From NCBI RefSeq assembly GCF_000023985.1, contig NC_013156.1, forward strand, positions 62,001 through 126,000: a stretch of DNA of 64,000 nt, in the 5' to 3' direction. A program made the translations under genes and the position numbers. Below, one piece after another: positions 16,647 through 39,335 of the stretch. Source of the stretch: Methanocaldococcus fervens AG86. Lineage in GTDB: Archaea; AGJL01; Methanococci; Methanococcales; Methanocaldococcaceae. The notes beneath the pieces were generated by a model. That model worked only from the letters and a program-made list of their open reading frames with translations, had not been told where the DNA came from and made no database searches. How positions within the stretch are numbered: the stretch's first letter is position 1; each line of letters begins with the position of its first letter.

Positions 16647-16978
16647 AATTCCACCTTTAATGAAAATTTTGATGATTAATATTATAATGCAATTTGATAT
16701 TTAAACTTTAACTGTCATTCTATGATTTGAATTAAAAGTAGGTAAACAGCGATAATTAGCTAGTATATCTTATATTACTATTTCTAATTATTTTATGAAT
16801 TTTTAAGATTATTAAATTTTTAATTATTTTATTATGATTTTTGAAATAATAAATATTTGGTAATAATATTTTTAAAAAAATAGTAAAATTTATATGTTAT
16901 TTTTACGTAATATATAGCATAAGTAATATGATATACATAATAACCTACATAAATTAATAATAATACAAAATAATTATT
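16647..16978. other. AT-rich intergenic region with pilin 1 promoter
   Basis: About 330 nt of very AT-rich sequence between two divergent genes. It must hold the promoter of the CBS protein near 16.67 kb. For pilin 1, a TATA-like ACGTAATATATAGC at 16907-16920 lies about 25 nt ahead of an AACCTACAT stretch at 16942-16950, which is also present at the same distance in front of pilin 2. No open frame or RNA gene was seen. Confidence 0.55.
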
Positions 16979-17030
16979 ACCCGATGACAGTCTCCCATAA
17001 TAGGATACTCGAGGGAAAGGGCAGAGGTGA
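16979..17030 (+). ncRNA. Conserved structured leader of pilin 1 mRNA
   Basis: This G+C-richer stretch is nearly the same as the one in front of pilin 2 (18414-18464), differing at only a handful of positions, while the sequence between promoter and leader is not conserved. It contains GATGACAGTCTCCCATAAT, then ACTCGAGGGAAAGG, and ends in the GAGGTGA ribosome site. A stem is possible: GU.UCCCA against GGGA.AC around a UAA loop, weaker in this copy (a C-A mismatch) than in copy 2. It is probably a 5' UTR element controlling pilin translation or mRNA stability. Confidence 0.6.
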
Positions 17031-17035
17031 GAAAG

Positions 17036-18157
17036 ATGTTAGACTTTTTTAAAAATAAAAAAGCAATATCTCCAATATTAGCATTATTAATCGTTTTAGG
17101 AGTTACAATAGTTGTTGGAGCTGTATTTTATGCATGGGGTGGAGGATTATTTGAAAGTAGTCAAGAAAAGACACAGGCGGCAGTTAAGGGGGCATCTGCA
17201 ACAATGTCAAGCGATGTTCTTCCATACTACGTTAAGGTTGGAATTGTAGGACATGATGAAAGTCTAGCAACATTTGAGTATGTTTCAACTGATGTTGATG
17301 CAGATAACGACAAAGCAATTAAAAAGGCAGCCTCGTATAAACCAGGAACATACACTGGATGTACAAAAGATGAGAGGGTTATATTTGAAGTTCCAATCTA
17401 TATAAGAAATAACGCCCAAGATAAGACATTAAAAGGAGTTACTGCAAAAGTTCTCGGATTATCAGGACACTTATGGTATGCACTACACTTGAAATACGAT
17501 GAAACAAATGACCAATACATATTATGTAAAAAAGATGATACTGAATTCGTAGGATATATTGGTGCTACAGCAGTAAAAGAAGATAGTACAGGACTTAAAT
17601 ATGTATTTGCACCAGGTAGTCCCCTCTGCATAAACATGTCAAATCCTGGATACAAATTTAACGAATCATCTGGAGCACTTGAACCTCAGACCGCTTCTGT
17701 ATATTATGAAGATAAATACTACAACACATACTGGACAGAGGTGGAATATCAACAATATAAAAACTATACAACCAACTCATTTGCTGACAACGTTACAACT
17801 CCACTCAGACTTATAAGTGCTGATGGTGTAACTTATTTCATGAAAGCATTAACATCATCAGGTTACAGCAGGGCTGTTAATACACCAAACGTATTCTTTG
17901 GCAATATGAACTCCACATTCTACGGGGGAAGTAGTTACAGTGATTGTAAAACAACCTTTAACAACCCAACATACACAATTGGAGATGTTCCACCAAATAC
18001 AGTTAAAACTGTCAATGCATACATTATGTTCCACTGGATAGACTCTGAATACTTACCAGATATTGATGAAATAAGAATTAAAATCCAAGACAGCGAAGGA
18101 ACATTAGCTAAGACAATTCCATTGAAATTCCACATTGAAGACCCAGAGTGGTCATAA
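17036..18157 (+). CDS. Type IV pilin-like major surface protein 1
   Basis: A 373-residue protein. The N-terminus, MLDFFKNKKAISPILALL, is a short basic leader followed by the ISPILALLIVLGVTIVVGAVFYAW hydrophobic helix typical of archaeal DUF1628-type pilins; a prepilin peptidase would cut just before that helix, after the Lys-Lys-Ala. The remaining 330 residues are a secreted domain with aromatic-rich strands and several N-x-T/S glycosylation sites. The ATG at 17036 is chosen over the GTG at 17027, which overlaps the ribosome site. Pilin 2 follows with its own promoter. Filament-forming subunit is the inference. Confidence 0.83.
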   Translation: MLDFFKNKKAISPILALLIVLGVTIVVGAVFYAWGGGLFESSQEKTQAAVKGASATMSSDVLPYYVKVGIVGHDESLATFEYVSTDVDADNDKAIKKAASYKPGTYTGCTKDERVIFEVPIYIRNNAQDKTLKGVTAKVLGLSGHLWYALHLKYDETNDQYILCKKDDTEFVGYIGATAVKEDSTGLKYVFAPGSPLCINMSNPGYKFNESSGALEPQTASVYYEDKYYNTYWTEVEYQQYKNYTTNSFADNVTTPLRLISADGVTYFMKALTSSGYSRAVNTPNVFFGNMNSTFYGGSSYSDCKTTFNNPTYTIGDVPPNTVKTVNAYIMFHWIDSEYLPDIDEIRIKIQDSEGTLAKTIPLKFHIEDPEWS

Positions 18158-18170
18158 ATTCTCTAATTTC

Positions 18171-18180
18171 CTTTTTTTAT
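18171..18180 (+). terminator. T-tract terminator of pilin 1
   Basis: A run of seven T (CTTTTTTTAT) 14 nt after the pilin 1 stop, the usual form of an archaeal intrinsic terminator, ahead of the separate pilin 2 promoter. Confidence 0.5.
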
Positions 18181-18337
18181 TTGCCATATACATTTATAAA
18201 TTTAAATTTTTTAATATAAGAATCTCTTTTAAATTTTAAAATAAAATTTATGAAATATATTTACTTTCTTCATAAAAATTCGTATTTTAGGTTTTATTTT
18301 CATATTTAAAGTTTTCTAAATAATTCATAAAGAAAAC

Positions 18338-18352
18338 TTTATATAGAGAAAG
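18338..18352 (+). promoter_or_regulatory. Promoter of pilin 2
   Basis: CTTTATATA preceded by the purine-rich GAAAA (TFB recognition element plus TATA box) lies about 25 nt ahead of the AACCTACAT motif at 18369-18377 that is shared with pilin 1. Transcription starting there gives a 5' UTR of about 95 nt that contains the conserved leader. The rest of the 18158-18469 gap is AT-rich with no open frame. Confidence 0.6.
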
Positions 18353-18413
18353 TTTGTATATACATAACAACCTACATTAAAGAAAATTTAATAAAATATA
18401 AAGTAATCTTTAA

Positions 18414-18464
18414 TACCTGATGACAGTCTCCCATAATGGGACACTCGAGGGAAAGGCAGAGGTG
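18414..18464 (+). ncRNA. Conserved structured leader of pilin 2 mRNA
   Basis: The second copy of the pilin leader. Here the stem is best: GU-C-UCCCA and UGGGA-C-AC pair around a UAA loop with one C-C mismatch. Downstream come ACTCGAGGGAAAGG and the GAGGTGA ribosome site that serves the ATG at 18470. Two near-identical leaders in front of paralogous genes, with diverged sequence on both sides, point to selection on the RNA. Confidence 0.6.
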
Positions 18465-18469
18465 AAAAG

Positions 18470-19516
18470 ATGTTGGATTTGTTGAAGAATAAAAAGGCGT
18501 TATCACCAATACTGGCTCTACTAATCGTTTTAGGGGTTACAATAGTGGTAGGAGCTGTCTTCTACGCCTGGGGAGGAGGATTATTTGAAACTGGTCAAGA
18601 AAAGACAAAATCAGCAATTGAAGGAACAACATCATCAATGGCATATGATGCTGGAGCAATAGGAGTTTCAGTTCCAAAAGAAATTGACGTTGAGGGAGAC
18701 TTAGATTTAGGTGATGTTTTACAAACATCATATGGGGATTACCCTGACTACTCAAAATATAAACTAAACGCTTTAGCAAAAGATAGTGAATGGGGAACTC
18801 TCTATGATGAAAGAATTATAGTCCCAGTTCCAATAACAATTGAAAACTACTATGATTCAGCATTAACAAATGTAAAAATACAAACTGAGGGTGCTGAAGA
18901 AATTGCAGCATTACAATTAAAGAAAACTACAATAACAGATGCTGCAGGAAACAGCTACGAAGCTTATGTCTTATGTGATAAAGATGGAAATGAATTTACA
19001 GGGATTATAAATAGAACTGGAATATATCCTGGAGCTACTTGGGTTGGTGATGATGGTAACAACTACAGCAGTATAAAATATATATTTGCTTTGCCATCAG
19101 TTACAGGAGTTGCAGCAGTTAATGATAGCAAAGATTTATCAGTAACTGATGTAAGTACGTGGGGAAGCTCAACATACAGACAATCTATGAGGTTATATGC
19201 AGGAGGATTTAACAACTTCTACTACGCATGTGCATATGATACAAGTGCTAAGAAATTCATAGGTTGGAATACAGGCTGGGCATTCAATAAATATGATAAC
19301 CCGACAGATGCATACTTCTACACAAATGAATACAAAGTAGGAACATTACAACCAGGACAGAAAGTTCAAAAAGAAATATACTTCCTCTTTGGAGCTTCAA
19401 TGGGCTTTAATATTGGGGAATCTTTAAAGAGAACTGTTGAAATTCCTATAAAAGTGGTTTCTGACGAAGGAGTTTATAAACAAGTAAATGTTAAGATAAC
19501 ACTCCACGATAGATAA
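18470..19516 (+). CDS. Type IV pilin-like major surface protein 2
   Basis: A 348-residue paralogue of pilin 1. The first 40 residues are almost identical (LLKNKKALSPILALLIVLG then VGAVFYAWGGGLFE), while the secreted domain has diverged strongly and has a different length, a pattern expected for surface-exposed antigenic or functional divergence. It is preceded by its own promoter and leader. The prepilin peptidase and the assembly ATPase lie just downstream on the other strand. The second half is rich in Tyr, Asn and Gly and includes several possible glycosylation sites. Confidence 0.83.
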   Translation: MLDLLKNKKALSPILALLIVLGVTIVVGAVFYAWGGGLFETGQEKTKSAIEGTTSSMAYDAGAIGVSVPKEIDVEGDLDLGDVLQTSYGDYPDYSKYKLNALAKDSEWGTLYDERIIVPVPITIENYYDSALTNVKIQTEGAEEIAALQLKKTTITDAAGNSYEAYVLCDKDGNEFTGIINRTGIYPGATWVGDDGNNYSSIKYIFALPSVTGVAAVNDSKDLSVTDVSTWGSSTYRQSMRLYAGGFNNFYYACAYDTSAKKFIGWNTGWAFNKYDNPTDAYFYTNEYKVGTLQPGQKVQKEIYFLFGASMGFNIGESLKRTVEIPIKVVSDEGVYKQVNVKITLHDR

Positions 19517-19588: not shown

Positions 19589-20350
19589 TTAAAAATGAGA
19601 TTTAACAACTAACTCTATTATCTTTAAAATTACTGGGAACGGATAAAACATATACAAAACATAAGAAAAACATATAAAAACTAAAAATGGAAGCTGAGGA
19701 GTAACCCAAACCTTCCCTTCATATACTATTTTTTCATTTTCTTCATTTATTTTTGGAATTAAAGATATTTTTTTATCATTCCCCATAACTGTTTCAAACT
19801 TTTTAACATCTTTAGCATCTTTTTTTAAAGCTATAAATAAAAGTATAAGATTTTTTAACCTCAATCCTCTATAATTTTTGTTTTTTAAGTTTATTAAGAA
19901 TATAATTATGCAATAAGGGATAACGAACAATATTGCATTTAAAAATATGATAAATGTAAAAACCATTCCTTTTAAATAGCTCAGTCCCATCAAAAATTTA
20001 CAATCTCCCCCACCCATAAGATTGCTATAATATAACAAAATCCCAACTAAATAAAACACTAAAAAAGATAACGCAAAATATGATTTAAAAACAACAAATG
20101 TCAATAAAAACAGAAACCCTCCAATGTAAAATAACTTACTAAATTTTTCATACTTAACTGCCATTGTAATAAATAAAATGGCAACAATTTCAATAAAAAA
20201 CAACATTAAATTCTTAATATGCAAGCTATGAAGAATAACTCCTATCCAAAGCATGGATATCCATAAAAAGTCAGAAACCTCTCTCTTTTTCCAATCCTCC
20301 ACAGCCCCATATATTGAGCATATTAACCCATATAAATAACTTAAATCCAT
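19589..20350 (-). CDS. Prepilin peptidase (A24 / PibD-FlaK family)
   Basis: A 253-residue membrane peptidase with the two catalytic aspartates visible: the first in EDWKKREVSD near residue 17, the second in LMGGGDCKFLMGL near residue 113 (the GxGD motif). About six hydrophobic segments surround them. It ends the pilus operon, 11 nt after the preceding gene. Its expected substrates are the class III signal peptides of the pilins on both strands. Length agrees with archaeal type IV pilus peptidases (EppA/PibD type). Confidence 0.9.
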   Translation of the reverse strand: MDLSYLYGLICSIYGAVEDWKKREVSDFLWISMLWIGVILHSLHIKNLMLFFIEIVAILFITMAVKYEKFSKLFYIGGFLFLLTFVVFKSYFALSFLVFYLVGILLYYSNLMGGGDCKFLMGLSYLKGMVFTFIIFLNAILFVIPYCIIIFLINLKNKNYRGLRLKNLILLFIALKKDAKDVKKFETVMGNDKKISLIPKINEENEKIVYEGKVWVTPQLPFLVFICFSYVLYMFYPFPVILKIIELVVKSHF

Positions 20351-20361
20351 TATTCCACCAA

Positions 20362-21480
20362 TTAGTTAATATTCCAGCTTTGATACTCAAATGAATTATT
20401 CAATGATGAGTAAAACAAATTAGGTTTTATAATAAATATATCTGCCAAAACAAAGCCTTTTGAAGAAATTCCTTTCTGTGGACTATAAATCGTTATGATA
20501 TGGCTGTTGTCATAATGTAAGGCGACATAAAGCATTGGTGCATCACCATAAATTACGTTGGAATAGTTATTTTTACAGGATTCATTTATAATAAGATAGG
20601 AAGTATCTGTAAAGTTTGTTATGCTTTCATTTAAGTTATAGCTAAAAATAACGTCTGAATAGTTATTTAAAAGCTTAACACAAACAGGGGGTGTAGTTTT
20701 AAAAATATAATTTTTGCTTTCATTAACTATGCAGGTGTAATTTTTATCAAAACTTATAACATGTAAATACCCAAAGAAGCTTCCATTTATCGAGATATTT
20801 ATATAGGTTTCATTGTTATTGGAGTATCCGCTTGTATTTATAAAAGAGACATTTCCACTTGAGCAATTAAAATTATCTTTTGCTAAAATAAATACAGCAA
20901 AATTTCCTTCTTTAGATGTATTCAATATATAATGATACAATGTTTTTGCATATACAGAATTGTTGTATATTGTTTTGTTAATTAGCAAATTCTCAAACTC
21001 ATCATAAACAGATACCTTAGCATAATTTTTATTAATGTCAATACTTCCATTAACTGAAATGTTTTCCTCAACATACAATGGAACACTATTGCCATCGAGT
21101 TTTAGAGTCCCATTAAATGCTCCACCAAATCCATGATTTGATATGTTATAGTAGAGGATATTATTTTTTAAAGAAAAATTGAATGTTAAGTTCTTTGCCT
21201 TATATTTTATAGTGGATAGTTTAATTTTTTTATAATCAATTTCAATGCCCTCCTCCTTATAATTATTTTTTAGATAAATTAAATTTTTTGTTAAATTTGA
21301 ATTTGAGATTAGAGAGTTTATTAAACATTTTTCTATACTGTTTTTGGCATCTTTCATTTTAAATACCAATAAATAACTATTATCGAAGCTATCTACATTA
21401 AAACTAAGTAAGAAAAACAATATCAATCCAATAGCTAAGATAACCCCACCAATGATAAAAAACTGCCCTTTTTTATTCAT
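20362..21480 (-). CDS. Pilin-like secreted protein with class III signal
   Basis: A 372-residue protein starting MNKKGQFFIIGGVILAIGLILFF, a typical basic n-region with Gly before the cleavage site and a Gln at +1. The remaining mature part is Asn- and Ser-rich with many N-x-S/T sites, consistent with an exported, glycosylated minor pilin or tip protein. The ATG at 21480 overlaps the upstream stop as ATGA, and GGTGGAG is the ribosome site, so it is translationally coupled. Confidence 0.78.
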   Translation of the reverse strand: MNKKGQFFIIGGVILAIGLILFFLLSFNVDSFDNSYLLVFKMKDAKNSIEKCLINSLISNSNLTKNLIYLKNNYKEEGIEIDYKKIKLSTIKYKAKNLTFNFSLKNNILYYNISNHGFGGAFNGTLKLDGNSVPLYVEENISVNGSIDINKNYAKVSVYDEFENLLINKTIYNNSVYAKTLYHYILNTSKEGNFAVFILAKDNFNCSSGNVSFINTSGYSNNNETYINISINGSFFGYLHVISFDKNYTCIVNESKNYIFKTTPPVCVKLLNNYSDVIFSYNLNESITNFTDTSYLIINESCKNNYSNVIYGDAPMLYVALHYDNSHIITIYSPQKGISSKGFVLADIFIIKPNLFYSSLNNSFEYQSWNIN

Positions 21481-21836
21481 CTCCACCATAATTTCAACCT
21501 TAGCTTATAAAAATTTACTGAGGAATTATTTTCAAATATAAAGTTCCTTTCAACAATTACTCCCTTTTTTGCATCACAATAACTTAAATTCCCATTTTTG
21601 TAAATCTCAAATCCGTAACCTACGTTACTCGGCAGTTTTATCTTCTCATAAAGGGAGCCGATATTTTCAAAATCACTCTCTTCAATATTTGCAGAATATA
21701 GGGAATTATAACCAATAAATTCTAATCCTACATTATAATTGAAATCTTGAGACACAACCAAATAGGAAAAAACTAATATCATTATAATGCTTGCAATTAC
21801 TGCCTCAAAAATTCTAACAAACCCTTTATTGTTCAT
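21477..21836 (-). CDS. Minor pilin-like protein (119 aa)
   Basis: A 119-residue protein starting MNNKGFVRIFEAVIASIIMI: a short positively charged leader, Gly at the likely cleavage site, and a Phe then Glu at the expected +1 and about +6 positions of type IV pilins. The hydrophobic helix runs to residue 32. A single Cys occurs in the C-terminal domain. Its start overlaps the preceding gene's end by 4 nt. Confidence 0.75.
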   Translation of the reverse strand: MNNKGFVRIFEAVIASIIMILVFSYLVVSQDFNYNVGLEFIGYNSLYSANIEESDFENIGSLYEKIKLPSNVGYGFEIYKNGNLSYCDAKKGVIVERNFIFENNSSVNFYKLRLKLWWR

Positions 21837-22387
21837 CTTCCCACTTCTAAAACTCCATAGTATTTTAACGATATAGCATCGTGATTATCAACAGCACAAA
21901 ATGGAGTTTCAAACAACTTGTGGCAATTAATCCTTGGAAACTCTCTATAGGTTATATTATAGCCTTTTGGATAGATTATCTCAACATCCTCATATTCATC
22001 TTTTTTATATTTTGCAGAGATGTTATAATATCCTATTATCTTTAGAAATTCCTCATTTTTTGTTACGATAAAGGTATCTTTAGATTTGGAATATGCAATA
22101 ATGTATGAGCCGTTAATATTGCTGAGATATTTTACCAATTCTCTACCTTCAGAAGTGTTTTTAAATACAAACCCTTCAATAACGTAGTTTATATCATTTA
22201 CTCTAAAATTAAATATTAAATCACCTTTTGAGCTTGAAAAATTATATTTTAAGTTATTATAATACATCAAAAATTCTTTTCTTGCATTTTCAATGTCATA
22301 AACACTATGTAAATTGACAGTTTCAGTGATAATATAAGCAGAAACTATCAAAAATATAGCTGTTGCAAGTAAATAATCTAATTCCAT
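21833..22387 (-). CDS. Pilus-operon protein with one N-terminal membrane helix (184 aa)
   Basis: Starts MELDYLLATAIFLIVSAYIITE, a helix without the obvious basic leader and Gly of pilins, then a soluble extracellular part of about 155 residues containing two Cys (HKLFETPFCAVD region) and N-x-S/T sites. The position between the platform protein and a minor pilin, with a 4-nt overlap and a 2-nt gap, supports a structural role in the pilus machinery. Specific family not recognised. Confidence 0.68.
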   Translation of the reverse strand: MELDYLLATAIFLIVSAYIITETVNLHSVYDIENARKEFLMYYNNLKYNFSSSKGDLIFNFRVNDINYVIEGFVFKNTSEGRELVKYLSNINGSYIIAYSKSKDTFIVTKNEEFLKIIGYYNISAKYKKDEYEDVEIIYPKGYNITYREFPRINCHKLFETPFCAVDNHDAISLKYYGVLEVGR

Positions 22388-22389
22388 CT

Positions 22390-24129
22390 TTATCCCCCAA
22401 TATAGAGTTTAAATATCAAATATCCAACAATTAACATAAACAAAACATGTTTTATTCCAGCAATAATTGATCTTTCAGTTAATATTCCTAAAGAAGCCCC
22501 AGAAAATATTGAGTATATTAAAATCCCCTGAAATAAATAATTCCTATAAAAATCAACACTCAATCCCTGAACATTTTTCAATAATGTTGGTAGAAGGGAA
22601 TGAACCATTATGTAGGAAGTCCCAATATACAGAAAAAATGTAAGGTAGATAACGACAACATATATAAACTGCCTGGAACTTATCTCCTTCTTCATCTCAC
22701 TCAATCTATAAGCGTGGACTGTTACTGAAGTTAAAATGTCTTTAATATCCCCACCAGAGACTGCACATTCTTTTAATATTGATGCAATTCTTTTAGCAAT
22801 TAAGGATTTTTCTGTTTTTTCTAAATCTGCAAATACTTCATTTATAGGCCTTCCCCACGACATCTGAACAGCCATTTTTTTAACAATTTTTGTTAAAGGA
22901 CCATAATTTGTTCTTGCACAAACTTGCATCGCTCTAATTATGTCCATACCGCTTCTCACAGCCATGGTTAAATCATTCAAAAATATTGGATAATATTTTT
23001 CTTTTTGATTTTCAATGATAAATTGCCAATAACTCGTTAAGATAAATGGAAGTATAGCAGCTAAAATTCCAAACATTAAAAAATCTTCCCCATAAAACAT
23101 GAAGATTGATTTTTTAGTGAAAAAGAACATAAAAGAGATTACAGAAAGTATCCAAAAGAATATGGTGATAAAATGTACAGGTTTCCATTTAAATTTCATT
23201 TTTATTCCTTCTATCTTTGGCTCATCAAACTCTTTTAAAACATCCAATAGGGAGACATTTAATTTAAAATCTTTTGGTAATATTCCATAAACTAATCCCA
23301 TAAATATTATTGATGCGATTGGAACCCATAAATAAAACGTTAGTGGAAGCAACATTGGATCTCCTAAGAACGATACACTTTGCAACACTGCACTAATTGA
23401 AGATGCTACAGGAACTGTCATTACAACAAAAAGAGGGATCATTCCACAGGCTATTACGTAGAATTCAGAAAGTATCTCAACTTTTTCAATAGCTCCCAAT
23501 AATTCTAATTTTCTATCTTCCATTAACCTCTCATGTATTTCATGAAAAATGTTTTTCATTTCAGCTCCAACGATTAAAGATGCTACTATGTTATAATATA
23601 CTGCCGATAATTTCTTACTTGGTGTTATTCTTGCTCTTCTTAGAAAACTAGTTATAATATCATAATTGAATATTTTAGTGTCTTTAATAATTTCTTTTGC
23701 TTCTTTACTCATCCCTCCGTAAATACCCTCCTTTGATAAAGAGTTGAATATCTCAACCACTGGAATATTTGCCGCTGATAGGGCAGATATAAAGGCAAAC
23801 GCATAAGGTAAATTTTCATCAATGCTTTTAGCTTTTTCTTCCATTACAATGTAGGGATATGAGATTCCCAATAAAATAATGGTAAAAACTGATACCAAAA
23901 ATCCAAAAATTGCATAAAATACATTAAAAAATATAAAGAGCATAACAAATATCATAAAACCTACAATAATTGCTGTTAAGAATATAACTGGTAGGTACGT
24001 TGAGGATATTGCGCTTATCCCAGATTTTAGTAAAATTTCATCAAATTTTTCATCCTCCATTTTAAAAAGCTTTATTGCCAACCTATAATACTTATTTTTT
24101 AAATTTTTAAAAAAGTCCAATTTAACCAC
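22390..24129 (-). CDS. Pilus assembly platform protein (TadC / T2SS-F, FlaJ-like)
   Basis: A 579-residue membrane protein made of two T2SS-F-type halves. The first half has AFAFISALSAANIPVVEIFNSL, the second GMDIIRAMQVCARTNYGPLTK and GDIKDILTSVTVHAYRLSEM, each ending in hydrophobic helices, about nine in all. This is the archaeal PilC/FlaJ layout, the inner-membrane base on which the ATPase works. It overlaps the ATPase gene by 8 nt, as is usual for the pair. Confidence 0.88.
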   Translation of the reverse strand: MVKLDFFKNLKNKYYRLAIKLFKMEDEKFDEILLKSGISAISSTYLPVIFLTAIIVGFMIFVMLFIFFNVFYAIFGFLVSVFTIILLGISYPYIVMEEKAKSIDENLPYAFAFISALSAANIPVVEIFNSLSKEGIYGGMSKEAKEIIKDTKIFNYDIITSFLRRARITPSKKLSAVYYNIVASLIVGAEMKNIFHEIHERLMEDRKLELLGAIEKVEILSEFYVIACGMIPLFVVMTVPVASSISAVLQSVSFLGDPMLLPLTFYLWVPIASIIFMGLVYGILPKDFKLNVSLLDVLKEFDEPKIEGIKMKFKWKPVHFITIFFWILSVISFMFFFTKKSIFMFYGEDFLMFGILAAILPFILTSYWQFIIENQKEKYYPIFLNDLTMAVRSGMDIIRAMQVCARTNYGPLTKIVKKMAVQMSWGRPINEVFADLEKTEKSLIAKRIASILKECAVSGGDIKDILTSVTVHAYRLSEMKKEISSRQFIYVVVIYLTFFLYIGTSYIMVHSLLPTLLKNVQGLSVDFYRNYLFQGILIYSIFSGASLGILTERSIIAGIKHVLFMLIVGYLIFKLYIGG

Positions 24130-25675
24130 CCATTACATTTTCTTCTCTATATCCACATATTCTCTTAACAAAATCTTCAAATCTAAGCTTTTCTTCACTC
24201 AAATTTTCTAAAAATTCAGCTCTTTTATGAAGCTCGTCAATAACATCTTTTTCTGAAATACCTGCAAATTCTGATATCCTTTTTAATAAATAACTCTTTC
24301 CAGAAAATTCAAAAGTGTCATCCTCAGGATTCCACCAAAAAACGTCATGTAAAATAACATCGTCAGTTTTTGGATCATATTCAACAACTTCGGTTATGCT
24401 TTTAGTTCTCCTAACGAACTTTCCTCTATATATTATTCTAACCTGCATACATATTGCATTTAATTGCTCGAGCATAATTTTTGGAATATTCATTGGCTCA
24501 GCATTCAATCTTCTTATAACCGCTTTAGGAGATTTGGCGTGTATTGTTGCCAATGCTAAATGTCCTGTAGTAATTGCCTGAAACAATATCTTAGCCTCTT
24601 CCCCTCTAACCTCCCCAACGATTAAGTAATCTGGCCTCTGCCTTAAAGCTGCCTTTAATAAATCCATCATTGTTACTTCATATTCCTCTCCACCAAAACC
24701 GCTTCTCGTAGTTCCAGCAATCCAGTTTTCATGAAACAATCTGATTTCGGGAGTATCTTCTATAGATACAATTTTCATTTTTGGTGGAATAAAGAGGGAG
24801 AATGCATTTAGAAGAGTAGTTTTTCCAGTAGCTACTTCTCCAGCAACCATAATGGAGTTTTTATATTCAATCAATAACCAAAGATATGCAAGCATTTCAG
24901 GAGAAATACTGCCGTACCTTATTAAATCGGTTGGCAAGATTGGGGAGTGTGTAAATTTCCTTATTGTAAATGTAGAACCATATTTGGAGATATCATTTCC
25001 AAGGGTTACATTTAACCTACTACCATCTGGTAAAGAGCCATCAACTATTGGATTGGCTAAAGTTAAAGATTTTCCGCATCTTTGAGCTAAAGATATACAA
25101 AATGAGTCTAATTCTTCTTCACTTTCAAATTTTATGTTTGTTTTTAGATGTTCGTATTTTCTATGGAATACATAAACCGGTTTTCCAACTCCAGTACAGC
25201 TAATATCCTCTAAATTCTCATCTTTCATAAGCACATCTATCTTTCCATAACCAATGAGGTGTTTAACCAAATAGTAAATTAATTTATGCTTTGTCATCTC
25301 ATCTATTGTTAACTTTAAATCATCAAAAATTTCAAAAATCCTTTCTTTTAAATATTCTTGCAATTTTTCTCTTTCTATTTCTTCCACAGGGACATCTAAC
25401 AACATTTGCACAATTTTCATTAATTTTAAAAATAATTCTACTTCTTCTTTCGTTAAAATTGGCTCAACAACTATGTACTTTCCCATTTTTTCTACTCTAT
25501 CGTAACCAATTATGACATCTGCCATATCAATTGTCATTTTTTCATATATTTCGAGGTTTTTAATTTCTTCATAAACTTCTTTCAAACTCTCCTCTATTCC
25601 AAGATTTTTTTCATCTTTTTTTTCTGATTTATTTTTAAATTTAAAAATCTTTTTTAGATTTTCAGTGATTCCCAT
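24122..25675 (-). CDS. Secretion ATPase (TadA / VirB11 / PilT-N type)
   Basis: A 517-residue hexameric-type motor ATPase. Walker A is GEVATGKTTLL near residue 282, the Asp box follows at SIEDTPEIRL, Walker B at DYLIVGEVRGEE near residue 350, and the His box at TTGHLALATIHAKSP. An N-terminal domain of about 170 residues precedes. It powers assembly of the filament from the pilins processed by the peptidase. The start at 25675 follows AAGTGATAG, 5 nt beyond the previous gene's stop. Confidence 0.92.
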   Translation of the reverse strand: MGITENLKKIFKFKNKSEKKDEKNLGIEESLKEVYEEIKNLEIYEKMTIDMADVIIGYDRVEKMGKYIVVEPILTKEEVELFLKLMKIVQMLLDVPVEEIEREKLQEYLKERIFEIFDDLKLTIDEMTKHKLIYYLVKHLIGYGKIDVLMKDENLEDISCTGVGKPVYVFHRKYEHLKTNIKFESEEELDSFCISLAQRCGKSLTLANPIVDGSLPDGSRLNVTLGNDISKYGSTFTIRKFTHSPILPTDLIRYGSISPEMLAYLWLLIEYKNSIMVAGEVATGKTTLLNAFSLFIPPKMKIVSIEDTPEIRLFHENWIAGTTRSGFGGEEYEVTMMDLLKAALRQRPDYLIVGEVRGEEAKILFQAITTGHLALATIHAKSPKAVIRRLNAEPMNIPKIMLEQLNAICMQVRIIYRGKFVRRTKSITEVVEYDPKTDDVILHDVFWWNPEDDTFEFSGKSYLLKRISEFAGISEKDVIDELHKRAEFLENLSEEKLRFEDFVKRICGYREENVMGG

Positions 25676-25680
25676 AGCTA

Positions 25681-26049
25681 TCACTTTACTTCAACTATGT
25701 AAGTGTCGTCAATCTTCTTACATGAGATTTTGGATATCTCCGAAAGCTTATTATGTAAAAAATGGACGTTATGGAATTTGTGAACATAGCTTTTATCTTG
25801 GAACATTATAACAAACGAATTGTTGATAAATTCAACGTCACAATCCAATTCTATCGTTTTATAAATGGTTATATTACCTTCATTTGCCAGAATTATAGCA
25901 TTCATAATTTCTGAGGTAATTTCTTTGTCTATCTTGTCTATGTATCTATATTTCCCAACCTCAATTAACTCATCATAAATCGTTGATGTAAACAATATAA
26001 TTGAGACAGAGATTAACATTAGAAGGGTAGATTTTACGATAATATGCAT
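25681..26049 (-). CDS. Small pilus-operon protein with N-terminal helix (122 aa)
   Basis: A 122-residue protein beginning MHIIVKSTLLMLISVSIILF; the rest is a soluble domain with two Cys (LDCDVEF and ISCKKID). The leader is short and lacks a canonical prepilin Gly, so it may be a single-span anchored component. It sits directly ahead of the ATPase and follows the next gene with 1-nt spacing. Family not recognised. Confidence 0.66.
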   Translation of the reverse strand: MHIIVKSTLLMLISVSIILFTSTIYDELIEVGKYRYIDKIDKEITSEIMNAIILANEGNITIYKTIELDCDVEFINNSFVIMFQDKSYVHKFHNVHFLHNKLSEISKISCKKIDDTYIVEVK

Positions 26050-26050
26050 G

Positions 26051-26551
26051 CTATCCCATTATTAGGTTGTAAATATAGATTTTTGAGTGATTGGTGTAGT
26101 AGTATCTCACGTTATTGGAATAATTTATCGTTAAATTTCCTCCAAATTCGCAAATTGATGAGTCTAAGTATTTTATGTAAGAGACATCTTGATATGGGGC
26201 TGAAATATTGTAAATAAATACGTATAATGTTCCTCTTTCCAGATAAACGTCATAGCTGATTCCATCAATAGTTGTAATATTTAATAATAAACAATTAGTC
26301 CCGTTGGAAATACTAACGGTTTGTTTTTTTGGATTAATTTTAATTTCATTGTTAAATGTTCTTTCAGAGTTTTTTCCACTACAAATTACATCGTTTATAA
26401 GGTTTTTTATGATCTTCATATCATTTTTCTCATTTTCTTTTGAAATTTGGGCTAAACTGTTATCTATTATGTTATTTCCCCATTCATAAGCCAGAGTAGA
26501 AAATACAAAAACTGTCATTACAACAAAAATTGTAGATGTGTAAACGTTCAT
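26051..26551 (-). CDS. Pilus-operon secreted/anchored protein (166 aa)
   Basis: Starts [25 protein letters not shown], one hydrophobic helix, followed by an Asn-rich soluble domain with N-x-S/T sites and Cys residues ([22 protein letters not shown]). Overlaps the upstream gene's stop by 4 nt. It resembles a minor pilin in overall layout but the leader is atypical. Extracellular location is the inference. Confidence 0.67.
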
Positions 26552-27402
26552 GTTCTTCCCCTTCTATCAAGGTAGATTGCCAATACTATAAGCCCAAAAC
26601 CTAAAATAATCCCAATAACTCCCAACAAACTTGGTGAGTTCCTTCTTTCTTCCAAAACTATTACATCATCTGGAGTTGAATCGTATAGCTTTACATAGAA
26701 ATATGGTTCTTTCAAGTATGCGGTATTATTTGAAACAAAAACGTTGTATTTTTTATCAAACGTGAATGTACCTTTTGAGTTTTTAATTATGTAAGAAGTA
26801 TTATTTTCACCAATGGATGTGGTATTTTTAACCATGTATCCATAAAATTCTGAACTGTTAAAGAATTTTGGATGGTAAATGTTACAAATTGATGAAATGT
26901 CATCTAAATAAATTAAACTTACAACTTTTTTGCTTGTTTTGTTATACTCTAAAATGTATTTTCCGTTAGTTTCAGCCAATTTATTTTCTGCAAATATTGC
27001 AATTTTTATATCATTTGGGGGAATTCTCATCCTAATTCTCCCAAGGGAACCTACATAATCTTCAAGTTGTGGAATCGTTATATTTATTGTGTTATTGAGT
27101 TTATCAACACTAAAGTTGTAGTAAAATACAATAGAACTTGAAGAATTTGTATAAAGTAGATATGAGTAATTACAACCGTAGATATCTTCATAAAGAACAA
27201 TTCCTGCAGATTTTACATAATGAGGAGTATTTGTTCCGTTTATTATATCTTTAACATACGCAGTGTCGTTTTTTATAGTTATGTATAAAATCTCGTTATA
27301 TTTCATATTATCATAATCTATACCTGAAGTATTAAATTCTGCAAAAGTAGAGTTAATTATGAGTAAGATTAACATACTTAACACATAATATGTTTTTTTC
27401 AT
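26548..27402 (-). CDS. Type I membrane surface protein with C-terminal anchor (284 aa)
   Basis: An N-terminal signal peptide ([21 protein letters not shown], cut after the Ala), an extracellular domain of about 235 residues rich in Asn-x-Thr/Ser sites, and a C-terminal helix [21 protein letters not shown] followed by the stop-transfer DRRGR. A surface-anchored subunit of the pilus or its base is the inference. It lies between the operon-leading pilin and a minor component, with a good GGTGATAAATAC ribosome site. Confidence 0.75.
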
Positions 27403-27423
27403 GTATTTATCACCTTTTAGTGT

Positions 27424-28128
27424 TTAGTTTATTTCAAACGTTATTTTTTTCTCTACATTTCCATATTTTGTAGAAGCAACAATTTTAAATATTGGAGTAT
27501 TTGGAATCTTTGTGTTATTTATTAGGATGTGGTAACTAACAGCTTTCTTAGAATTTCCTTTTAATAAAAAACTCTTTGTAGGGGAATTTAAGACAACTAA
27601 ATTGGTTAGATTTGATGTATTTGTTGAAGCATAATATAATCTCCCATCTTTATCGTAAAATTTCATCGAAGAATTGTAATATGTCTCGTTAAAATAGATA
27701 TAAACTCCATTATGATTGTAAGGATTTCCATTTCTATCTAATAATTGGTTGTTGTTATTTTCATCTATATTCACGGATGCCCAAGAAACGTTTGGAGTTA
27801 AGCAGTATATTCTCGTATCTACACTCAAATCCTCATCAATATTATTTATGAATTCAAGAATTACCGTTTGTATAAATCTTTCTTCAGGGGTATTTGTTAT
27901 TTTTAAATCGTTATTTAAATCGAGATTTGTAAAATAGTATGTCTCAATTGATGAAATTTCAATGGGTTTTATAACGTTACCTATGGATGATTTTATTGTT
28001 GGAGTCATTTTTTCTGTAGTATCTGCAAATATATCGTTACTCCAAGTGTAATACATAGTTCCAACAACAACCGCAGCTCCAATTAACAGTAACATGGTAA
28101 TTATTAATGATATGCCGGAGTTATTCAT
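27424..28128 (-). CDS. DUF1628-type pilin, first gene of the pilus operon
   Basis: A 234-residue protein beginning MNNSGISLIITMLLLIGAAVVVG, a short leader with Gly at the likely cleavage site, like the two major pilins' ISPILALL helix, then a secreted domain. The start at 28128 follows GGTGAACACA. It opens the ten-gene operon (28.1 to 19.6 kb). It could be the principal pilin of this machine or a minor one, with the two divergent-strand pilins as main subunits. Confidence 0.76.
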   Translation of the reverse strand: MNNSGISLIITMLLLIGAAVVVGTMYYTWSNDIFADTTEKMTPTIKSSIGNVIKPIEISSIETYYFTNLDLNNDLKITNTPEERFIQTVILEFINNIDEDLSVDTRIYCLTPNVSWASVNIDENNNNQLLDRNGNPYNHNGVYIYFNETYYNSSMKFYDKDGRLYYASTNTSNLTNLVVLNSPTKSFLLKGNSKKAVSYHILINNTKIPNTPIFKIVASTKYGNVEKKITFEIN

Positions 28129-28356
28129 TGTGTTCACCGTTAAGTTTATTATATACTTTGAAGTTTATTATACTAAAGCAAATTTTATAATATTTAAGAT
28201 TAACTTTATACATAAAAATATTTCTGCAAAATTTATGAATTATGAAGATAACCTATACTATTAATATTTCTATAATATTAATTGCAAAGTTATTAATAAT
28301 ATTTATACTTTGTATTATAAAAGTTGTGAATTATAAATAGTTAAGGTGCTAGAATT

Positions 28357-39172: not shown

Positions 39173-39335
39173 GTTTCCATACCGAGACGGCCTTATTTTA
39201 ACTAAAAGAAGTTAATAAGTTATTTGGTGGAATTCTAACAGAGTTGTTTCCATACCGTTCCGGTCTGATTTTAACAAAGGAGAAAATGATAGAGCTCCTA
39301 AAAAAGTTTCCATACCGAATCGGTCTTATTTTAGC
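39173..39335 (-). CRISPR. Mini-CRISPR with three diverged repeats
   Basis: Three 30-nt repeats at 39173-39202, 39246-39275 and 39306-39335 separated by a 43-nt and a 30-nt spacer. On the minus strand each reads like the Methanocaldococcus repeat: a TTAAAATCAGACCG-type 5' half and a CGGTATGGAAAC 3' half. The three vary mainly in the loop between ACCG (GCCG in one) and CGGT, where the bases are GAA, TCT and ATT, so the hairpin is kept. No cas genes lie in the window. The AT-rich region at 39336-39780, upstream in this orientation, may be the leader. A 76-codon frame through it (39198-39428) is an artefact of the repeats. Confidence 0.85.

Follow-up and report, generated by a model that had tools for sequence, protein, structure and literature searches.

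L7Ae is the kink-turn (k-turn) protein of archaea, where it serves both as a ribosomal protein and as a core protein of the box C/D and H/ACA sRNPs. Control of mRNAs by L7Ae is experimentally known for l7ae itself, to which RIP-Seq has added a small number of Sulfolobus mRNAs, among them that of nop5-fibrillarin. The protein binds k-turns tightly, and in vivo it binds and represses leaders with a GAU-bulge k-turn, including that of its own mRNA (Daume et al. 2017, PMC5539422); the k-turns known from l7ae leaders have this GAU bulge together with tandem G:A pairs (Huang et al. 2019, PMC6298567). The 2017 RIP-Seq paper (PMC5539422) does not mention pilins, and among the openly available papers that we searched, none contains both "kink-turn" and "pilin". 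While k-turn leaders bound by L7Ae are already known, their occurrence on pilin genes, as proposed here from sequence comparison, would be new.

The window that we analysed, a stretch of 64,000 nucleotides from Methanocaldococcus fervens AG86, carries two pilin genes on its plus strand. The first (17036-18157; 373 aa) has a type IV pilin N-terminus with a class III signal peptide, matching TIGR02537 above and the UpsA N-terminus below the respective cut-off, and a GTG start at 17027 falls within its Shine-Dalgarno sequence. The second (18470-19516; 348 aa) also matches TIGR02537 above cut-off and has orthologues in six other genomes of the genus; a search of solved structures found no useful pilin relative. 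Facing the pilin genes on the minus strand is a type IV pilus cluster (19589-28137) with an A24 prepilin peptidase, a UpsF/ArlJ-like membrane protein, an apparent secretion ATPase and several small pilin-like proteins, and CRISPR repeats (Rfam CRISPR-DR13) are found on the same strand at 39173-39335.

Each pilin gene has a leader (16979-17030 and 18414-18464), and a previous sequence-only reading of this DNA had described the two as near-identical, unusually GC-rich and separated from their promoters by diverged segments. We indeed confirmed both leaders at these positions and found 84% identity between the two M. fervens genes over the 62 nt 5' of the ATG, compared to 54% for their promoter segments (-170 to -62), as well as a GC content of 45-48% in the hairpin described below versus 7-28% in the intergenic flanks. 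Perfect copies of the 14-mer GATGACAGTCTCCC number exactly two in the window and likewise two in the whole genome, where a third, imperfect match belongs to sequence that reads like a coding region and lacks the hairpin. Searching Rfam gave no match at gathering score at either leader.

Both leaders are predicted to fold into a standard k-turn hairpin, an assignment that we consider well supported and very probably correct. In the first leader, the hairpin (16980-17015, plus strand; covariance score 62.8 bits) comprises a C-stem of CCC/GGG (16980-16982 with 17013-17015), a GAU bulge (16983-16985), GA facing GA (16986-16987 with 17011-17012), C·C at 3b·3n (16988/17010) and an NC stem with a UAA-type loop (16989-17009), with the Shine-Dalgarno sequence GAGGTGA (17024-17030) following 8 nt downstream. 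Its counterpart in the second leader (18416-18451, plus strand; 66.1 bits) has a C-stem of CCU/GGG, a GAU bulge (18419-18421), GA/GA (18422-18423 with 18447-18448), C·C at 3b·3n (18424/18446) and an NC stem with UAA loop (18425-18445), and ends 7 nt before GAGGTGA (18459-18465). The short stem around UAA that had been noticed from sequence alone, and judged best in the second copy, is thus correct but represents only the outer half of the k-turn hairpin; this stem is complete in copy 2 and contains one C·A mismatch in copy 1. Across both strands of the 64 kb, a strict k-turn scan with GAU bulge detected only these two hairpins, with 0.03 expected from shuffles. The single-sequence folding energy of the leaders does not stand out (z from +1.2 to -1.4), and the evidence for their structure is therefore comparative. 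A pairing of 5' ACCU (18370-18373) with AGGU of the Shine-Dalgarno sequence was also considered and dropped because ACCU is lost in two genomes of the genus (G008 and G013).

Of the 14 genomes of the genus, seven have pilin homologues. In G007, the two genes appear to be those at C1:1363318-1364352 and 1364674-1365738 (minus strand). The DNA upstream of the pilin genes gave an alignment of 12 leaders with nine distinct hairpins, which precede all seven orthologues of the second gene and five of seven orthologues of the first. The two hairpin-less first-gene orthologues are G011A, which lies far from the second gene of its genome, and G004A, whose genome has the two genes on different contigs. 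All 12 leaders follow the standard simple k-turn pattern, in which a C and an NC helix enclose a 3-nt bulge and the G·A and A·G pairs after it. Their C-stem is formed by (U)CCC or UUCC with GGG(A) or GGAA, their bulge is GAU (AAU once) followed by GA facing GA on the opposite strand, and their 3b·3n position never pairs, being C·C, U·U, U·C or C·U. The NC helix consists of GGU/ACC or AGU/ACU, a C·C or C·U mismatch, UCCC(A/G)/UGGGA and the UAA loop. Invariant are bulge positions L2-L3 (A and U), both GA steps and the first two G residues of the C-stem, and L1 is G everywhere except in G007B.

Across these leaders, 93.5% of cells are paired in the proposed structure, and RNAalifold arrived at the same two helices without prompting. 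Compensated changes affect 5 of the 12 pairs, compared to 1.4 in shuffles (of which 0 of 500 reached five) and 0-2 in slid controls. Four of the pairs with changes on both sides belong to the NC helix and one to the C helix, so that C-stem covariation is modest. Among the independent changes, the strongest are found in G011/G004 (U-A to C-G and C-G to U-A), in G007B (C-G to U-A) and at position 13-33 (A-U/G-C/G·U). A covariance model run on 36 genomes of the order returned 12 strong matches (56.8 to 68.5 bits), all of them pilin leaders, and found the hairpin nowhere else in these genomes, with scores next falling to 21 bits; the weak matches that we inspected (E 0.06 to 5) sit in apparent coding sequence. 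Searching the genus for the pattern CCGATGA...GAGG likewise revealed no other obvious leader among the matches examined, which were mostly coding sequence or tnpB-linked repeats. Separately, we noted k-turn-like hairpins, CCGATGAGAGGGCTCTGCCTTCGAGG and CCGATGAAGCTATGGGCTGAGG, that several species have in multiple copies (L168, L173, L182 and L183), at the end of what is apparently tnpB coding sequence and also in short copies of a repeat.

The covariance search had been suggested by the sequence-only reading as a way to find further copies and compensatory changes; that reading proposed an RNA element regulating pilin translation or mRNA decay, and favored a recent duplication if the leader were confined to the two genes and had no compensated pairs. 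While the leader is indeed restricted to two gene families, further copies were found in the genus and it is kept in seven genomes with compensated pairs, which fits a conserved RNA element that is probably read by a shared trans-acting factor. Within species, the leaders of the two genes are 65-97% identical (84-97% in four of five species) and the first 40 codons 82-100%, compared to 52-60% for the promoters, which is the background level for such AT-rich DNA. The signal-peptide codons (17036-17155 and 18470-18589) evolve in concert with the leader, and the remainder of the genes has diverged. The old split of the two genes predicts less similarity of leader and signal-peptide codons than is seen within species, so conversion does take place between them, and the 12 leaders are consequently not independent. 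This similarity could also mean that the leader is a relic of duplication or gene conversion devoid of function, but maintenance of the hairpin across seven genomes, its compensatory pairs and the near-invariant k-turn core make such an explanation highly improbable.

Each gene is preceded by a canonical BRE/TATA element of alternating T and A on the plus strand, TAGTAAAATTTATATG (16879-16896) for the first pilin, whose orthologues have TCGTAARATTTATATAT at -147/-148, and AAGAAAACTTTATATA (18330-18345) for the second, conserved in seven orthologues at -131 to -137. The two elements are unrelated to each other and each is conserved among orthologues, with the A-type element being retained even in hairpin-less G011A and G004A. 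Given a TATA centre at -26/-27 relative to the transcription start (PMC5512572), TATA position alone predicts starts near 16919-16920 and 18368-18369, i.e., ca. 60 and 48 nt 5' of the hairpin. In the 12 leaders, the hairpin spans -61 to -18 and the Shine-Dalgarno sequence starts at -11 to -13; with a conserved BRE/TATA ca. 131-148 nt upstream of each gene, the hairpin is therefore predicted to be transcribed. An AT-rich ATATAAA located 12-16 nt 5' of the hairpin, though weaker than the BRE/TATA, could act as a second TATA and place the start inside the hairpin. The conserved DNA would then be a promoter element under EarA-like TACATA sites and no k-turn would be made, which is consistent with the resemblance of upstream ACATAAYNACCTACAT to the EarA box, A(C/G)(C/G)TACA(T/C) (PMC10665913), and its recurrence before archaellin genes. 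We regard this scenario as distinctly unlikely, since ATATAAA is broken in the first copy of the window (copy A; ATACAAA), the canonical BRE/TATA is conserved in both paralogues even where hairpin and ATATAAA are absent, and both the compensatory changes and the exact match to k-turn rules in the two strands of the stem would be left unexplained. The ACATAAYNACCTACAT block itself (16935-16950 and 18362-18377) also stands before archaellin flaB genes of the genus (L134-L142, with an exact copy at L134), hinting at a common transcriptional control of pili and archaella.

The k-turn identity of the hairpin points to L7Ae as the likely trans-acting factor, and the local L7Ae hardly differs from the chain in PDB 1sds, which we take to be the M. 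jannaschii protein bound to a k-turn. Any surplus of free L7Ae would bind the k-turns of both pilin 5' UTRs, and with only 5-12 nt between the end of the hairpin and the Shine-Dalgarno sequence, the bound complex may hinder entry of the small ribosomal subunit and lower pilin translation. Such a translational brake would be common to pilins and l7ae, tying pilus output to ribosome and sRNP production. Within the genus, the l7ae leaders of G000, G001, G011 and G012 carry CCAC-GAU-GA...GA-GUGG and that of G003 a similar form with AAU, and the remaining l7ae leaders inspected lack this k-turn. We infer binding, repression and the transcription start, and assign a probability of roughly 60% to the reading that L7Ae binds the pilin k-turns upstream of the Shine-Dalgarno sequence and lowers translation. 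As a counterpoint, G011A and G004A manage without the hairpin. Apart from the k-turn present in some of them, l7ae leaders of the genus (L088, L094, L095, L096, L086, L087, L097 and L098) share the conserved hairpin GGGCAAT..CCTCCGGATTGCCC; its CCUCC may be able to pair with GGAGG, the Shine-Dalgarno sequence of l7ae. A similar CCCTCCGGA precedes an L30e-like gene (L109).

Folding of a k-turn in Mg2+ without L7Ae is predicted by 3b=C together with -1b:-1n=C:G (PMC4382518, PMC6298567), a combination present in most pilin leaders, with the G008 leaders having U·U. The pilin hairpin may therefore not act as an on/off switch, leaving room for a role without L7Ae such as protection of the 5' region of the mRNA from decay or a fixed spacer that keeps the Shine-Dalgarno sequence, which is not part of the stem, open in a highly expressed mRNA. 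It nonetheless seems unlikely to us that the hairpin works without L7Ae, given that the GAU bulge and GA steps recognised by this protein are kept, that the G008 leaders are predicted not to fold in ions alone and that L7Ae folds every k-turn analysed, so that an exposed k-turn should be bound. If L7Ae acts as a brake on pilin translation, occlusion must be steric since the Shine-Dalgarno sequence lies outside of the hairpin.

More tentatively, and with odds that we see as leaning against it, L7Ae could sense ribosome and sRNP assembly in general and, through its free level, set the output of a cell-surface filament via an ion-prefolded k-turn outside the Shine-Dalgarno sequence, possibly even aiding initiation instead of blocking it. 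If true, there would be a post-transcriptional link between ribosome biogenesis and the formation of pili for attachment in hyperthermophilic methanogens. A conserved pilin k-turn would extend L7Ae control to a surface structure and give genetic work in M. jannaschii a concrete candidate target of this protein. It would also be a natural k-turn that folds by other rules (3b=C) than most of the known l7ae leaders.

Box C/D RNAs are defined by a C box (RUGAUGA) and a D box (CUGA). The G008 leaders come close to these with AUGAUGG...CUGA and share the U·U at 3b·3n with box C/D RNAs, but the boxes of the pilin leaders are joined by one 21-nt hairpin and located in an mRNA leader. The leaders do not qualify as box C/D guide sRNAs, as there is a conserved hairpin between the boxes and neither a guide segment nor a C'/D' pair nor an Rfam match. 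G007B, with CCAAUGACGG...CCCGAGG, is presumably close to the k-turn of the U4 snRNA 5' stem-loop, a likeness that we treat as a lead only. U4 mostly has G-C or G-U at 3b·3n (PMC4382518), whereas the pilin leaders have pyrimidine·pyrimidine. With the k-turns of l7ae 5' UTRs (PMC5539422, PMC6298567), the pilin leaders share the GAU bulge, tandem G·A/A·G and a position close to the Shine-Dalgarno sequence of an archaeal mRNA, their hairpin likewise being predicted to lie in the 5' UTR. Unlike in l7ae leaders, where the Shine-Dalgarno sequence lies in or flanking the hairpin and, in A. fulgidus, is occluded by the k-turn stem, that of the pilins starts 5-12 nt beyond it. The pilin k-turns further differ in having mostly C·C at 3b·3n and C:G at -1b:-1n, with predicted ion-induced folding, and in sitting on pilin genes with a sequence that is tightly conserved across the genus.
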